Shown one piece after another: positions 28,679 through 36,631 of a stretch of 36,631 bases of DNA. Each line of letters starts with the position of its first letter. Position 1 is the first letter of the stretch. The translations under genes were made by a program, and so were the position numbers. The DNA is from Pseudomonadota bacterium. GTDB taxonomy: Bacteria; Pseudomonadota; Gammaproteobacteria; Xanthomonadales; Rhodanobacteraceae. Under the pieces are notes generated by a model. That model searched no databases, was not told where the DNA came from, and worked only from the letters and a program-made list of their open reading frames with translations. The stretch covers positions 1 through 36,631 of the forward strand of contig JAJYTG010000010.1 of assembly GCA_021793195.1 (NCBI GenBank), read 5' to 3'.

Positions 28679-28717
28679 ACCGCGGCCGCTGCGGCCGGGA
28701 ACATCCGGCTTGATCTC

Positions 28718-28746
28718 TGGTCAGAAAATCACCATCTCGCTATACT
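28718..28746 (+). promoter_or_regulatory. Promoter of rpoD
   Basis: TATACT (28741-28746) is a near-consensus -10. TGGTCA at 28718-28723 is a weak -35 with exactly 17-bp spacing. The -10 ends 29 nt before the rpoD ATG. Confidence 0.5.
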
Positions 28747-28775
28747 GTGCGGTTCAACTCCCAGGCGGTGCCGGC

Positions 28776-30632
<1,857 letters not shown>

Positions 30633-30732: not shown

Positions 30733-30808
30733 GGGCCTGTAGCTCAATGGTCAGAGCACGGGACTCATAATCCCTTGGTTCCAGGTTCGAGTCCTGGCAG
30801 GCCCACCA
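30733..30808 (+). tRNA. tRNA with CAU anticodon, most likely tRNA-Ile2 (lysidine type)
   Basis: A 76-nt cloverleaf with encoded CCA. The acceptor stem is GGGCCTG/CAGGCCC, the D stem GCTC/GAGC, the anticodon loop CTCATAA, and the T stem CCAGG/CCTGG with loop TTCGAGT. C4-G69 and C5-G68 in the acceptor stem match E. coli tRNA-Ile2 (ileX), whereas elongator tRNA-Met has other pairs there. E. coli ileX also lies close to rpoD. I therefore favour tRNA-Ile2, which reads AUA after TilS makes lysidine at C34; an elongator tRNA-Met remains possible. The pair 27-43 is C-U and does not close. The last 37 nt are repeated four more times downstream. Confidence 0.93.
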
Positions 30809-31389
30809 TCCCGCCATCAACCCTCCCTGGTGCCGTACTCCGGCCCGGACCTCCCTGTCCGGGCGCTCGATGCGGCGCGCGATGCGTTACTTCGCATCGC
30901 GCAAGCGCCGCGCCTCGCCCCTTGGTTCCAGGTTCGAGTCCTGGTAGGCCCACCATCCCGCGATCAACCCTCCCTGGTGCCGTACTCCGGCCCGGACCTC
31001 CCTGTCCGGGCGCTCGACGCGGCGCGCGATGCGTTACTTCGCATCGCGCAAGCGCCGCGCCTCGCCCCTTGGTTCCAGGTTCGAGTCCTGGCAGGCCCAC
31101 CATCCGGCGATCAACCCTCCCTGGTGCCGCACTCCAGCCCGGACCTCCTTAGTCCGGGCGCTCGACGCGGCGCGCGATGCGTTACTTCGCATCACGCAAG
31201 CGCCGCACCTCGCCCCTTGGTTCCAGGTTCGAGTCCTGGTAGGCCCACCATCCCGCGATCAACCCTCCCTGGTGCCGCACTCCGGCCCGGACCTCCCTGT
31301 CCGGGCGCTCGACACGGCGCGCGATGCGTTACTTCGCATCGCGCAAGCGCCGCACCTCGCCCCTTGGTTCCAGGTTCGAGTCCTGGTAG
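30772..31389 (+). repeat. Tandem array of tRNA 3'-end repeats (about 147-bp unit, 4.2 copies)
   Basis: Each unit begins at base C40 of the tRNA (CCCTTGGTTCCAGG...), runs to the CCA end (37 nt), and continues with about 110 bp of downstream sequence. Units start at 30772 (inside the real tRNA), 30919, 31066, 31214 and 31361, so periods are 147, 147, 148 and 147 bp. The fifth copy stops after 29 nt at ...CTGGTAG. Units 1 and 2 differ at only 3 positions. Each full unit has two hairpins. In unit 1 these are GCCCGGAC/GTCCGGGC (30843-30850 with 30857-30864) and GCGCGATGCG/CGCATCGCGC (30877-30886 with 30893-30902, loop TTACTT). There is no protein gene here. The copies keep the T arm and the 3' acceptor strand but lack the 5' half, so they cannot be tRNAs. 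They are natural attachment-site look-alikes for tRNA-targeting integrases. Confidence 0.95.
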
Positions 31390-32147
31390 CGCTACGCAGA
31401 ATCGAATCAGCCAGCACCGTGGAACAGCACACCGTGCACGTGGGCTGGCGTCTCGTTTGTTTCGCTACGCCATCGCCACGGGTCGTGCCGAACGCAATCC
31501 AGCGACGGAATTGATTGGCGCGCTAAAAAGTCCAACGACGCGGCACTTCGCCAGCAGTACCGATCCGCAACAAGTGGCAGTCCTTCTGCGCGCTATTGAT
31601 GGCTATTCCGGCACGCCGACCGTTGCTGCCGCCCTGAAGTTGGCGCCGCTTCTATCCGTACGTCCCGGTGAATTGCGAACCGCGCGTTGGGCCGATATCG
31701 ATCTGAATGCATGCGAATGGCGGTACATCGCCACCAAGACAAAACCCTGCATATCGTGCCGATTGCTTCGCAAGTCGCCGCGATCCTGCGCGAGCTGCAA
31801 CCGCTGACAGGTCGAGGAAAGTTTGTGTTTCCCGGTATCCGTTCGCAGCGTCGGCCGATGAGCGAAAACACCATAACTGCTGCCCTGCGCGCCCTTGGCT
31901 ACAACGGCGACTCGATGACCGGCCATGGCTTTCGCGCGATGGCCCACACGATTCTGGATGAAGTGCTACACATCCGCCCCGACTACATCGAACACCAGCT
32001 CGCGCACGCAGTACGAGATCCAAATGGACGTGCGTACAACCGCACTGCGCACCTGCCCGAACGCCGAGCGATGATGCAGCAGTGGCCGACTATCTGGATA
32101 CGCTGAAAACTAGCGGGATCGTGGTGCCGATCAGGCGCAAGGCCTGA
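31390..32147 (+). pseudogene. P4-type tyrosine integrase, 5'-truncated and frameshifted
   Basis: This is the C-terminal two thirds or so of a P4/CP4-57-like site-specific integrase. Homologous sequence starts at the junction with the last repeat (LRRIES from 31392), so roughly 155 N-terminal residues (arm-binding and part of the core-binding domain) are missing. The frame is broken three times, each by loss of one base in a short homopolymer: near 31422 (GAAACA to GAACA), in the A-run at 31741-31744, and at 32084-32085 (TGGGCC to TGGCC). Pieced together it reads RGLASRLFRYAIATGRAERN, SVRPGELRTARWADIDL, TGHGFRAMAHTILDEVL, HQLAHAVRDPNGRAYNRTAH. The catalytic Arg (31661-31663), H-x-x-R (31924-31935), His (32005-32007) and Tyr (32035-32037) codons are all still there. 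It is the degraded mobility gene of the island. Confidence 0.9.
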
Positions 32148-32315: not shown

Positions 32316-34370
32316 CTAAACGATGCCTTCCTGACGGGCCTTGCCTAAAATCCCAACTAGAACGGCGCTCTGCCTTTCGGTGGGAACCTTCACAGGTATC
32401 TTCTCTGCAATCCGGAGTATGTCCATCTCCTTCGGAGTCAGAATCCCGCGCGTCGCTCCCTCCTGCAATATCAGAGACCAGCGCGCCGCAGGCACTTCGA
32501 ACACCCGTTTCTGTGCCTCGATCCCATTGTCGATCTTTTGAATCTGACGAGCAGTTTTAGCCACATGTCGATTTTGGTCCGCGGAAGCAAGGTCGTGCCA
32601 GAATTCCTTAGGAATAAGGTCGGCGATTTCATCCGTTCGCTTCGAAAGTCGATCCCAACAGGCTTCCTTTTTGCACCATTCAGAGACATTCGAAATGCCT
32701 TGAGGCGGGCTGGCAATGTCATTGCTCACTGCTTGAGCGATGATGGCAAGCGTCTGCGATAGAACGCCATCAATTCCTTGCGCACCCCAGATACGTTGAT
32801 AGTCCACCGTAAATTTTCGACGCCTAGTAATTTCACCAAGCATCGCAAGCGTGTATGCGACGATGTTGGCGCGATAACCGCCGTTGTACCAAGGTTGGGC
32901 GGACACCAACCTTTCGGTCGCGTGGAACAGAATGCCTCTCGCAATGGCTCTGTGGAAATACAATTCATTGAAGCTGTCTGACGATTTTTCCCATTCTTTA
33001 CCTATCCGCCGCGCATATTGGGCGAAGTTCTTTTGACCACCTAAATTCACCCATCTTGGATGGTCATCGAAGACATTTTCGAATTTGGCGAGATCCGTCT
33101 TCGTGAACATCTGCGTCTTCGGGTATTCCGCCTTGAAGCGCTTCTGCTCGCCAGGCGTGAGCTTTGATTGCGCGTCCATGTACTGACCGCGTGCGCGCTC
33201 AAAGAACCACTTGGTCTCGCGCTGCGCGCCCTGCTGGGCTGGTGCCCACATGCGTCGTGAGAACTCCGCCATGCGCACATGAAAGGGGTGATTGGAGAAG
33301 AAGTCGGCCGCGTTCACCCGATTCTGTGTGTTGGCATATTCCGAAATCCGGGGCACGATCTTCTCGCTCTCGTCGCTATCAATCACTGACAACTTCATTT
33401 GAACGAAGATTTTCGATAGGTCCACCTTGTCCCGCCGCTTGGTGTGAAAGAGCGAGGCCGTGGTCTGCCCACCGTTCACGATCTGGAGATCCGATATACG
33501 ACTGATCTGGAGACCGCCATCCGTCATCTGCGTTTCGACCAGACCGGCAGTCGCAGTAATGCCGTTGTTGTAGGCAAAGAACATCTGGGGTTCATTGAGG
33601 ATTGTCGCCCTGATGCCCTTATTCACCTGAGCCCGAGCCTGGAGAAACGTCCGCACGTTCTGTTCGAACAGCCGAGCACTGTAGTAGCCATAAAGTGTGG
33701 CGAGAATGGTCGCGGGCATGACAATCAGGTAAGACTGGCATGAGTCCGAGCCGAGATTTGCCGACAAGCAGTTGATGCCGCATCCGAACATCTGCACGAA
33801 ATCAATGTTGAGCGGCTCCTTGTGCCCGCGTGAGCTGCGCTGGCGCTGGAAGCGCGCCATATCCCAGATGTGATAGGTCGCGTGGATGCCGCCGATTTTG
33901 TTGTCCGGATACGATTCGAAGCGATCGCTAAGTGCCCTCTCTGAGACAAGATAAAAATTGACTCGGCGAAGCCTCTCGCCGCGATCGGCGATCTGCTGCG
34001 CAAGGCCATATTCAGGCGTGGTGACGTCGGGTTTAAGTTTGCCTTGGAGGCTCGCTTCAAGGAAGTTGGCCGCTCGCTTGAAGCTGCTATCCACCTCCGT
34101 GCGGGTCAGCGCTTCCAGCTCGTGGCGGCAATCGAAATCCGCCACGAAAAGATCGAGCGCATCTTCATCATTGAACCAGAAGCCGTCGACCCGCATCCCA
34201 CGCGGGGTGCGGAAGGGACAATGCTCAAAGCCCTCAACGAATCCGGTTTCGATCAGCTCACTAGAAACGACCTCCATGAAAGCCTCAAGCTGAAACGTGC
34301 TGCTCGCCTCCGCTCCAGCAAGCATTTCCTGTCGAAAGTCATGAAAAAAATCTCCAACTGTCTGTTCCAT
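32316..34370 (-). CDS. AIPR family protein (abortive infection phage resistance)
   Basis: The 684-aa product carries the family's conserved blocks: ARLFEQNVRTFLQ (about 232-244), FFAYNNGITATAG (264-276), ISDLQIVNGGQTTASLF (292-308) and EYANTQNRVNAADFFSNHPF (344-363). AIPR proteins were named from plasmid-borne phage-resistance loci and are frequent in operons with Z1 and PD-(D/E)XK proteins; their biochemistry is not settled. The N-terminal 80 residues include RVDGFWFNDEDALDLFVADF, an acidic stretch of unknown role. The ATG at 34368-34370 overlaps the upstream stop as TGATG, so I prefer it over the GTG one codon earlier. This is the last gene of the operon. Base and codon use are visibly less GC-rich than in the core genes, consistent with transfer. 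Confidence 0.9.
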   Translation of the reverse strand: MEQTVGDFFHDFRQEMLAGAEASSTFQLEAFMEVVSSELIETGFVEGFEHCPFRTPRGMRVDGFWFNDEDALDLFVADFDCRHELEALTRTEVDSSFKRAANFLEASLQGKLKPDVTTPEYGLAQQIADRGERLRRVNFYLVSERALSDRFESYPDNKIGGIHATYHIWDMARFQRQRSSRGHKEPLNIDFVQMFGCGINCLSANLGSDSCQSYLIVMPATILATLYGYYSARLFEQNVRTFLQARAQVNKGIRATILNEPQMFFAYNNGITATAGLVETQMTDGGLQISRISDLQIVNGGQTTASLFHTKRRDKVDLSKIFVQMKLSVIDSDESEKIVPRISEYANTQNRVNAADFFSNHPFHVRMAEFSRRMWAPAQQGAQRETKWFFERARGQYMDAQSKLTPGEQKRFKAEYPKTQMFTKTDLAKFENVFDDHPRWVNLGGQKNFAQYARRIGKEWEKSSDSFNELYFHRAIARGILFHATERLVSAQPWYNGGYRANIVAYTLAMLGEITRRRKFTVDYQRIWGAQGIDGVLSQTLAIIAQAVSNDIASPPQGISNVSEWCKKEACWDRLSKRTDEIADLIPKEFWHDLASADQNRHVAKTARQIQKIDNGIEAQKRVFEVPAARWSLILQEGATRGILTPKEMDILRIAEKIPVKVPTERQSAVLVGILGKARQEGIV

Positions 34371-35338
34371 CACTTACCCCCGTAGATAGCTCCGTTATCG
34401 CACGCGAATGAAGCGATCGCCTCCAGCTTGATGTCGTAGGCGACCTTAGCGAGTCCGGCCGGAAGATGAGATCGGATCAACCGTGGAAAGCCCTCCTCAA
34501 CGCGAAAGCTGCGGACTTCACTGACTGCGAAACGCGGCTCGTCGTAGTCTGGTAGGGGCGCAAAGCCACTCGCTACAAGTTTGCGGTCAAAGGCCTCAAT
34601 AGCTTCTGCCTCTCCAAGCCGCGCCTGTATGGCAGCCACGACTTCATTGAGCGATTGCGCAGCCGATGCTTCCTGCAGGTTGCTCAAGCGATAGATGCGC
34701 AGGAACAGATCATCGTTCAGAGATTCCAGTTGGTCTTCCGAGGAAATTCGGACAGTGCTGCGCTCCGTGCCGGAAAGCGATTTGATCTCAATAGCTGTGT
34801 TGCCGAAGATGAAGTCCTGATGGGATCTCTCGGGCCCAAGCCAGGCTTCGACGGCCGCACCCGATGATTGCAGGCGGCCCATCAGCTCCAGCAGGAACGT
34901 GAGCTCGGCAAAGAGGCCCCGAACCTCCTCAATGGACAAGCGCTGCCCGCCACGACCGGACAGGAAAGTTTTCCAACGGCGGATATGAGCGAGTGCCACA
35001 GCGAGCGAGCTTGAAGAGTCGCTCGCATATTGCAGAGCAGAAATGAGCGTCCGGCAGAGGCTCTCGAAAAGGTCGCGATCCACCTGCTTCTCAAGCGTGA
35101 GAATCAGTCGCTGGTGCCTCGGCTCGCCGGCCCGCAAGTCAACGTCGATGCCATTCACCGATGCGACGTTCTTTCGGTACTGTGTAGTGTGGTTGCCCTC
35201 GAGCTCAATGATGAAGAGGCAGGCGCCGTTCACGTTCCGACCCCAGAAACAGGGAACGGCCATCTTGCCTGCGGCTTGGCGGACATTGAGGTCGGTATCC
35301 GGTATCGCGATGTCATCCCACAGGGAAGCGTTAGGCAT
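34370..35338 (-). CDS. PD-(D/E)XK motif protein (DUF4420 type), putative nuclease
   Basis: The 322-aa product resembles the DUF4420 family of predicted restriction-endonuclease-fold proteins. Around residues 140-187 it has RGLFAELTFLLELM with E145, then HQDFIFGNTAIEIKSLSG, giving D175 and the E184-I-K186 triad of a PD-(D/E)XK active site; the motif looks intact, so DNA cleavage is plausible. The start ATG (35336-35338) is preceded by a strong GGAGGA about 5 nt upstream. It overlaps the end of the Z1 gene by 8 nt, and its stop overlaps the AIPR start by 1 nt, so the three are translationally coupled. In comparative genomics this family accompanies Z1, AIPR, a GHKL (MutL/MORC-like) ATPase and a DNA methyltransferase. 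Confidence 0.88.
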   Translation of the reverse strand: MPNASLWDDIAIPDTDLNVRQAAGKMAVPCFWGRNVNGACLFIIELEGNHTTQYRKNVASVNGIDVDLRAGEPRHQRLILTLEKQVDRDLFESLCRTLISALQYASDSSSSLAVALAHIRRWKTFLSGRGGQRLSIEEVRGLFAELTFLLELMGRLQSSGAAVEAWLGPERSHQDFIFGNTAIEIKSLSGTERSTVRISSEDQLESLNDDLFLRIYRLSNLQEASAAQSLNEVVAAIQARLGEAEAIEAFDRKLVASGFAPLPDYDEPRFAVSEVRSFRVEEGFPRLIRSHLPAGLAKVAYDIKLEAIASFACDNGAIYGGK

Positions 35339-36631
35339 CGTAATCCTCCTCCTCATCAGGGTCGTCCGGGGTGCCCTGCATCCGCTCCAGCCAGACACGA
35401 TTCGCAACCACCTCGATCTCAGTCTCATAGTGACCAGGTGGGAAGCTGACGCCAAAGGCGGCAATCGGCCCCTTTGCGCGGCTGTCGCCGTGTGGGTCTA
35501 GAGAATGGATCATGAGCAGTGGTTTGTTTCGAACTTCGCGGTAGTGTGTGTCCGACGGAGCAACGGGCTTCTCCTCAGCAGCTGCCAGCTTTTCTGCGCA
35601 TTCCTGCTGCTCCTTCGTCAGGCCAAGTTTCTCGTCGCCACGCGACGCGACACGATCTTTGGTCAGCCGCCATGCCGTGCCTTGCAGGTCGCTGGCGATT
35701 CGCGACTGTACGTTCAATTGATACAGCCCGGCGCTTTCGCCGCGAGGTGAAATCAGTAACACGTCGCCAACCGGATGCTTGTCGGCGAGGGTTCGGAGAT
35801 AGGCGACGATATCCGCCTTGCGATCGCCGAATTGGTTATGCGCCTGAAAGGAGATCAGAAGGTCCTCGATCAGGTCTACGGCCACATCGTGGAAGATGTA
35901 CCCCTTGCCGGTATCTTCCGGCGTGAGACCACCAAAGCCGTCGCGCCACGTCTTCTCTATCAGACAAAAATTAGCAGCGTTCACGTCCTGATCTGTGGAA
36001 ACAATGTAGCTTTCCAACATGCGGCCGCTGAAGTTCTGACGGAACGTCACCTTTTCTCCCGTTCGCATCTTGTTCGCGGCAGTGATCAGCAAGCTGTCCG
36101 GGTGAGCCATGATGTAAAGCCCGAACTGACGTGGGCTGAGCCCGTCGCGGCGCATGCGCTTCACCTGCTGAATCAGCTCCTCGGCCGCCTGCGCAATATG
36201 CGAATACCAATTGATGGAGTCGCGCGATAGGTGAACTCGGCACAGATCCTCGAAACCCGGTCTATAGCCGAACCACCGACCCATCTGCATCAGCGTGTCG
36301 TACATCTTCGTGTTGCGGTACATATAGCTGACGGTCAGACCCTCGATGGTCAGACCGCGGGAAAGACTCAGACCACCCACCGCAATGGCGGTAAGCCCAA
36401 CGCCCTCCTTTTCGTACTTTGTGTAGTCGAGAACCTCGTCGCTCCTGCTATTGATGACATAAAGGTGGAGGTGGTCAAACACGTCGTTCAACGCCGTCTT
36501 GACCTGCACCCAGATAAAGCCGGCGTTGGCGTATTCGGCTTCGAACGCCTGTTTCAGGCCTTCCATGTAGATGTTCGCCGATGACACGGATTCCGGCATC
36601 ATGTAGTTGGCGCGCACCGCATCACTGATCT
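35331..36631 (-). CDS. Z1 domain helicase-like protein (C-terminal part)
   Basis: At least 432 residues are visible; the 5' end lies beyond the window, since the frame is still open at base 36631 and reads ISDAVRANYMM. The block IAVGGLSLSRGLTIEGLTVS followed by YDTLMQMGRWFGYRPGFEDL is the hallmark of the Z1 domain and corresponds to motifs V and VI of superfamily 2 helicases, including the Arg of GRWFGYRPG. After the Z1 region come helical sequence (HIAQAAEELIQQVKRMRRDG) and a mixed C-terminal domain ending in the acidic PDDPDEEEDYDA. Z1 proteins are thought to be the motor of a restriction-like system. The ATPase and Walker motifs should be in the missing N-terminal part. Confidence 0.9.
   Translation of the reverse strand, partial: ISDAVRANYMMPESVSSANIYMEGLKQAFEAEYANAGFIWVQVKTALNDVFDHLHLYVINSRSDEVLDYTKYEKEGVGLTAIAVGGLSLSRGLTIEGLTVSYMYRNTKMYDTLMQMGRWFGYRPGFEDLCRVHLSRDSINWYSHIAQAAEELIQQVKRMRRDGLSPRQFGLYIMAHPDSLLITAANKMRTGEKVTFRQNFSGRMLESYIVSTDQDVNAANFCLIEKTWRDGFGGLTPEDTGKGYIFHDVAVDLIEDLLISFQAHNQFGDRKADIVAYLRTLADKHPVGDVLLISPRGESAGLYQLNVQSRIASDLQGTAWRLTKDRVASRGDEKLGLTKEQQECAEKLAAAEEKPVAPSDTHYREVRNKPLLMIHSLDPHGDSRAKGPIAAFGVSFPPGHYETEIEVVANRVWLERMQGTPDDPDEEEDYDA

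Follow-up and report, generated by a model that had tools for sequence, protein, structure and literature searches.

A tandem array of tRNA 3' halves in a Rhodanobacteraceae genome and a dispersed two-hairpin element that adjoins copied gene ends

We analysed a stretch of 36,631 nt (hereafter, the window), positions 1 to 36,631 of contig JAJYTG010000010.1 from a Pseudomonadota bacterium of the family Rhodanobacteraceae (assembly GCA_021793195.1). There, rpoD is followed by a tRNA gene with a CAU anticodon, a tandem array built on the 3' half of that tRNA and the remnant of a tyrosine integrase gene (Table 1). ARAGORN calls the tRNA Met(cat); from its likeness to E. coli ileX, we take it to be most likely a lysidine-type tRNA-Ile2. 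The integrase frame gave a match to positions 62-96 of the 96 of Phage_int_M on ORF 30830-31807 (32.6 bits, cut-off 27) and another to Phage_integrase on ORF 31687-32106, with 25 bits, below the cut-off of 27.1. It is probably a pseudogene. Behind the array, on what appears to be a decayed island, the minus strand carries AIPR, DUF4420 and Z1 genes (window 32316-36617; MzaE, MzaD and MzaC according to PADLOC), part of an Mza-type defence system ended by the contig edge.

Table 1. Positions of the features at the tRNA array, numbered along the window
Feature	Positions	Strand	Basis
rpoD, upstream neighbour of the tRNA	28710..30632	+	Pfam sigma-70 domains
Intact tRNA, anticodon CAU, 3' half duplicated	30733..30808	+	ARAGORN; Rfam tRNA 73.9 bits
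Unit 1: tRNA nt 40-76, short linker (g), E copy 1	30772..30918	+	TRF, unit alignment
E copy 1	30818..30919	+	R1 search, 87.4 bits
Unit 2	30919..31065	+	TRF, unit alignment
E copy 2	30965..31066	+	R1 search, 88.3 bits
Unit 3, 148 bp, one extra base	31066..31213	+	TRF, unit alignment
E copy 3	31112..31214	+	R1 search, 75.1 bits
Unit 4	31214..31360	+	TRF, unit alignment
E copy 4	31260..31361	+	R1 search, 80.6 bits
Trailing truncated tRNA piece, 29 nt	31361..31389	+	unit alignment
Partial tyrosine integrase frame(s) lacking the N-terminal part, directly behind the trailing tRNA piece	31390..32106	+	

The tandem tRNA 3' halves behind the CAU tRNA, described in the initial annotation, are real: successive units start 147, 147, 148 and 147 bp apart and a fifth copy stops after 29 nt. 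TRF scored the array with 1136 (period 147, 4.2 copies, 96% matches); setting aside a second row for the array itself, the best other tandem row in the window scored 65. Relative to unit 1, unit 2 differs at 3 of 147 positions, exactly as had been counted before, unit 3 at 8 plus one gap column, and unit 4 at 6. Since the units carry substitutions of their own, a simple assembly duplication is disfavoured. Unit position 27 is a C in the intact tRNA (unit 1) and in unit 3, and a T in units 2, 4 and 5; T is also the base of the G004 tRNA that has the start of the element described below behind it. Because of this distribution, the array may be older than a substitution that arose in the acceptor stem of the functional tRNA.

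The ‘spacer’ of each unit is a dispersed element of about 101 nt, which we call E, with the layout ACCnTCCnTGG, hairpin 1, hairpin 2 and CTC[G/A]CC. The part of the unit that is not tRNA was found on other contigs of the same genome (1.78 Mb in 97 contigs, 72.9% complete), in some cases in tandem with quite different host DNA. Twenty E copies aligned over 105 columns give two hairpins, whose stems start with G-C pairs, with a loop of about 10 nt in hairpin 2 and compensating changes in its upper stem. In this alignment, 9 of the 24 base pairs changed on both sides and 95.4% of the cells were paired. The covariation value was 0.256, compared with 0.070 in shuffles (0/500 as high) and 0.016-0.069 in six slid controls, for sequences that are related and a structure derived from those same sequences. 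The number of further pair types (20 vs 16.0, with 13/500 shuffles as high) was the weaker one of five measures.

Using a search model for E (R1), with up to 150 candidates scored in each genome, we obtained at least 112 matches (E-value ≤0.01) in 11 of the 13 genomes of the genus, and none in the other two, G002 and G003. In the family, 59 of 197 genomes gave a match (E-value ≤1e-4), distributed over 10 of 26 genera. Rfam 15 returned nothing above the gathering score except the tRNA, and E matches none of its families. The hairpin-1 pattern occurs in at least 119 stretches of named genomes, with many from Luteimonas, Lysobacter, Pseudoxanthomonas, Solimonas and Nevskia among the 80 matches listed. 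Most of these stretches match R1 weakly and may be sister families. The pattern had no exact match in viral contigs, and array units 1 and 2 had no match in plasmids or phages. Regarding published work, neither E nor a long, one-sided duplication of the target by repeats of this type was found described in the open-licence PMC literature, which is weak evidence of absence. Besides, two loci with related patterns were observed. In Luteimonas aquatica (L278, 1814-2184), four units with a spacing of 114 bp have the hairpin-1 core in common and a different second half, and are perhaps a sister family with its own amplification. At L138 (G000:C88, 10903-11208 of the contig), two weak tandem R1 matches with a CTTCGCTGCGCTCAGGATGACAA-type flank resemble another REP family arranged with neighbouring DNA.

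We then compared the left and right flanks around each E, with all copies oriented alike, defining D as the host sequence to the left of E, g as the linker between D and E, and D' as a second copy of D to the right of E. Considering usable flanks, with array members counted singly and rows L038 and L039 left out, 43 sites of the genus scored at least 75 bits. At 31 of them, D' began within 8 nt of the CTC[G/A]CC end of E, and at 27 within 3 nt; at a threshold of 95 bits, D' was present at 15 of 23 sites. The same test gave no D' at 12 of the 43 and 8 of the 23 sites, respectively, two of the 12 being explained by the array itself. Most D' copies span 25-115 nt (141 in one array), g measures 0-52 nt, and units made of D, g and E occur 1 to 15 times, ending in a truncated D'. 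When 100 sites were grouped by flank similarity with single linkage, which merged several genes into one cluster, 16 of 43 clusters had a D' (score of at least 16, start within 3 nt) and three more were borderline (offset 5 or 8, or score 14). As a control, 1 of 2000 unrelated left-right pairs scored, and no cluster had the mirror arrangement only.

Outside the genus, the duplication is less frequent. Twenty chosen sites gave four strong D' cases (accB, and tRNA-Ile2 three times), two weak ones and 14 without. Flanks were also examined at 46 of 85 R1 matches, and seven showed D' at a score of at least 22 from offset 0. Two of the seven were the genus's own G008 and G012 sites, so that outside the genus D' was found at 5 of 44 and was absent from 39 of 44. 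Older copies there may have lost D', or sister families may insert differently.

The junction between E and D' follows a simple rule. In 24 representative loci, the base before D on the strand of E was a C in all 24, and the junction read C|C in 21, compared with a background of 8%. We also considered priming by microhomology with the whole CTCGCC end. The stretch shared at the 24 loci averaged 1.25 nt (background 0.46) and was mostly a single C; therefore, a preference for CC targets is the better reading. The possibility that g is a donor flank carried along with E was likewise rejected, as left flanks matched only among orthologous or tandem sites and other weak repeat groups, the exceptions being a CCCGAGTC-type stretch at three sites and one 16-nt match at an E-value of 0.02.

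The comparison with a site free of E rests on accB; at the window array, the right flank has been replaced by the integrase remnant. E lies at accB in 5 of the 13 genomes of the genus. In G007, which has no E there, the order is upstream-ATG-gene, and in G004 it is upstream-ATG-leader-E-g-ATG-gene. The G007 sequence matches that beside the truncated leader of G004 with a score of 22 of 30, compared with 7 beside the intact gene. Extending this to six E-bearing genomes, the outer side was the better match in five and tied in the sixth, both with G007 and with G002 as reference, in a comparison in which several accB scores were low and 11 of 13 accB loci were oriented alike (G010 and G001 were left out). 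Because the native junction adjoins the truncated leader, the stretch inserted at accB would consist of E, g and one extra D; genomes free of E could also be precise deletions. The leader agrees with the start of its own gene at 66/66 positions in four genomes, and at 65/66 and 61/66 in two, while the gene starts differ between genomes by 3-14 of 66. For this reason, D and D' of accB appear to be homogenised within each genome. The flanks beyond the start codon are mostly not homogenised.

To identify the target genes, we used start- or stop-anchored ORFs on the left side of E together with Pfam, the exact gene names being our reading of the Pfam matches. D was a gene start at genes of the 3-hydroxyisobutyrate-dehydrogenase-like, accB-type biotin carrier, pgk, argC-type, ferredoxin, hisF-type, ubiG-like methyltransferase, murA/EPSP-type, purA, rpe, pdhB-like and trmB-type kinds, and a gene end at VanY-like, CMD and secA genes. 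The 5' gene ends predominate, with E antisense, probably because GG-rich sense codons place CC sites on the antisense strand within genes. The left end of E faces the intact gene in all 16 gene-end targets for which an intact copy was identified (tRNA-Ile2 included; the ORF search covered the left side only). Two or three tandem E copies were found at mmsB-like, trmB, rpe, pgk and ubiG-like genes. In secA, the stop codon is supplied by E. The rluE genes of G000 and G007 contain E together with a repeated PAGRLD segment as an in-frame insert that stays open; in other intragenic pieces, the reading frames end inside E. The truncated accB and pgk copies keep the start codon, and a short leader peptide is predicted to end inside or near E at accB (L038, 1426) and pgk (L048, 1406; L324, 1339). 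At pgk, D' begins at the same codon in three lineages: the genus, a Lysobacteraceae MAG and Luteimonas sp. Y-2-2-4F. Repeated insertion would give this pattern, and so would a single old insertion that was retained, or a functional module.

The tRNA of the window has been hit in relatives too. The rpoD-tRNA pair is common to the window and G011, where 15.4 identical units of 144 bp lie between rpoD and the same tRNA, with sigma-70 domains at the end of the array. The array is thus not confined to the window. In G011 it lies on the 5' side of the tRNA, starts within the 5' half and repeats a 5' piece of the tRNA with its upstream side. G069, G114 and G057 show an almost complete second tRNA copy adjoining an E, as does G037, from another family, so at least three different junctions exist within this one tRNA-Ile2 gene. 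As the initial annotation had anticipated, copy number varies among relatives, with 4.2 units in the window, 15.4 in G011 and one E at this tRNA in each of G069 and G114. In G004, a first part of E stands behind the 3' end of tRNA-Ile2 and is then broken off. A group I intron (Rfam Intron_gpI, 63.7 bits) interrupts the anticodon loop of the tRNA-Ile2(CAU) gene in the same genome (L221, G004:C10, 1338-1577). Finally, a tRNA-Gln gene lies beside E in G004 and G007, with a weaker duplication in G007 (18.0).

According to these results, we read the window array as the product of one insertion of E, a small non-autonomous hairpin element, on the 3' side of tRNA-Ile2, followed by tandem amplification, and we give this reading a probability of roughly 0.74, which the strongest sites that lack D' (8 of 23) lower slightly. 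The trailing tRNA piece is read as the right-hand copy of the target duplication. In the mechanism that we propose, E would insert in one step and duplicate about 25-115 bp of its target (141 in one array). An insertion just inside a gene end would then leave an intact gene beside a truncated copy, and insertions with no such rescue would be lost, which may be why duplications are seen at gene ends, mostly the 5' ends of housekeeping genes. The direct repeats could afterwards recombine or slip, leading to expansion, contraction and homogenisation. From the variable length of the duplication and the precision of one end, we suspect a nick before CC, followed by displacement synthesis through D and an imprecise joint at the other end. 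E itself is probably selfish.

One could argue that E belongs instead to a vertically kept cis-regulatory or RNA module, made of a truncated gene start, hairpins and the real gene, which would act as a leader or, as in rtT, as a source of small RNA. The recurrence of E at accB, pgk, tRNA-Ile2 and, weakly, trmB in different genera speaks for it, together with the constant orientation towards the intact gene and the start codons retained in the accB and pgk leaders. Nevertheless, we consider a module unlikely: the distribution is patchy within the genus, as the accB counts show, E is found at 5' ends, at 3' ends, inside rluE and beside tRNAs with no common pathway, and the copy number at a single tRNA goes from 1 to 15.

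Movement of E by a RAYT/TIRYT-type HUH (Y1) transposase acting on single-stranded DNA is, in our opinion, quite unlikely. To our knowledge, insertion of the IS200/IS605 type makes no target duplication. We searched for the enzyme family Y1_Tnp and found it in 34 of 59 E-bearing and 93 of 138 E-free genomes of the family, that is, with no association with E; it was absent from G069 (99% complete, 13 E matches) and from G004 (87% complete), both of which carry E. At 8 of 23 Y1_Tnp places examined there was no strong R1 match, the single one being weak (26.8 bits) and about 1 kb away. In favour of such an enzyme, E is palindromic, and the CTCACC variant, read on the other strand together with the host Gs, ends in GGGGTGAG, which fits GGGGWSAS, the TIR motif reported for TIRYT genes (PMC3733652). 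The CTCGCC variant, the commoner one in the 20-copy alignment, gives GGGGCGAG.

One precise end, one variable end and target duplications of variable length are also what a SINE-like retrotransposition with target-primed reverse transcription would leave. This alternative is very unlikely: RVT_1, the second enzyme family searched, turned up in 4 of the 13 genus members but in none of the E-rich G000, G004, G007 and G009, which are 73-91% complete, so that no resident reverse transcriptase was seen in E-rich genomes that are themselves incomplete. G011 has fifteen RVT_1 matches, several with identical scores.

The 3' ends of tRNA genes are classic integration sites, and a partial integrase frame is joined to the last tRNA piece of the window. 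Both facts would suit decoy attachment sites, in which the tandem 3' halves divert the integrases of genomic islands from the real tRNA. The initial annotation had put forward decoy integration sites and RNase processing substrates as possible roles. Neither holds as a general explanation, because the same element and layout are found at many protein genes, and the view of the array as a tRNA device is not supported, the tRNA probably being one landing site of a dispersed element. Besides, G011 repeats the 5' piece of the tRNA with its upstream side, which is not the usual attachment core, and the N-terminal part of the integrase is missing exactly at the junction, presumably as after a deletion. 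Altogether, we hold decoy sites to be highly improbable. Least credible is a single event of replication slippage that duplicated the unit in tandem and involved no mobile element. Slippage can yield tandem units with small differences and a fractional copy, but this reading is already contradicted by the dispersed copies of the ‘spacer’, and slippage alone does not place a trailing D' against the native flank, the arrangement seen at accB.

Beyond the insertion and amplification of E at this tRNA, E might represent an undescribed mode of bacterial transposition, with a precise end before CC, an imprecise other end and a target duplication of about 25-115 bp, so that it could land in essential genes, leave them intact and later multiply together with the duplicated gene end. 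We put this forward tentatively and regard it as possible but rather doubtful. If insertion with a long duplication is confirmed, we can understand how small hairpin elements enter compact genomes at essential genes while the cell survives. Loci prone to recombination, at which up to 15 units were seen, would also become available for strain typing. Also, the spread of palindromic repeats with no transposase of their own becomes a question that can be tested directly.

E belongs among the small palindromic repeats generally, with an unusual junction rule. Mycobacterial MIRUs are, like E, interspersed and tandemly variable elements at gene junctions; unlike E, we know of no copy of a gene end in each of their units. 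GTAG-type REPs are palindromes of 20-40 bp with a GTAG tag at one end and an associated RAYT (Y1) transposase gene, whereas E does not have this architecture and shows no association with Y1_Tnp in the family. The CGTC-tagged REPs are also palindromic and dispersed, with no associated transposase found, and are described as having stems of 8-9 bp starting with A-T, loops of 4-5 nt, a CGTC tag and a CCA tail (PMC3733652), whereas the stems of E start with G-C pairs, its loop has about 10 nt and its ends are different. Rickettsia palindromic elements, of about 100-150 bp, are closer in size, and many of them lie in frame inside genes (PMC10969869; PMC3733652), as E does at one gene (rluE, in two genomes); in its other intragenic pieces the frames close within E. 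Neither long target duplications nor tandem amplification are mentioned for them in the accessible parts of these papers, while E copies with a D' are located mainly at gene ends.

The array of the window had been likened in the initial annotation to the rtT repeats of E. coli, and the parallel holds in layout. At tyrV-rttR, the tRNA is followed by 3.1 units of 178 bp, each containing the tRNA 3' end, with palindromic spacer segments and a trailing tRNA 3' piece before unique DNA, just as in the window. Its sequence differs from that of E, and its products include an annotated small RNA and tpr; one source lists rttR as bearing a REP (PMC12306157). The closest precedent for the E arrays is found in SMAG, a GTAG-type REP of Stenotrophomonas maltophilia, which belongs to the same bacterial order as the window organism. 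SMAG arrays likewise consist of a short palindrome that recurs in tandem along with neighbouring DNA; they occur at several loci, with unit numbers that differ among strains (PMC2613905). SMAG measures about 23 bp and has a GTAG end, whereas E has about 101 nt, two hairpins and no GTAG. In that paper, no rule was discerned in what is amplified (PMC2613905), and REP-like tandem arrays with flanking DNA, as well as the rtT array of E. coli, have so far had no rule for what gets copied. In E arrays, unlike those of SMAG, each unit is bounded by the CTC[G/A]CC end before C(C), and the DNA that accompanies E is the copy of a gene end, so that a rule becomes visible here, in which the element end is fixed, the target is CC and the copied gene end varies in length. 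If E does represent an undescribed mode of transposition, the tyrV-rttR and SMAG arrays may have arisen in a similar way.
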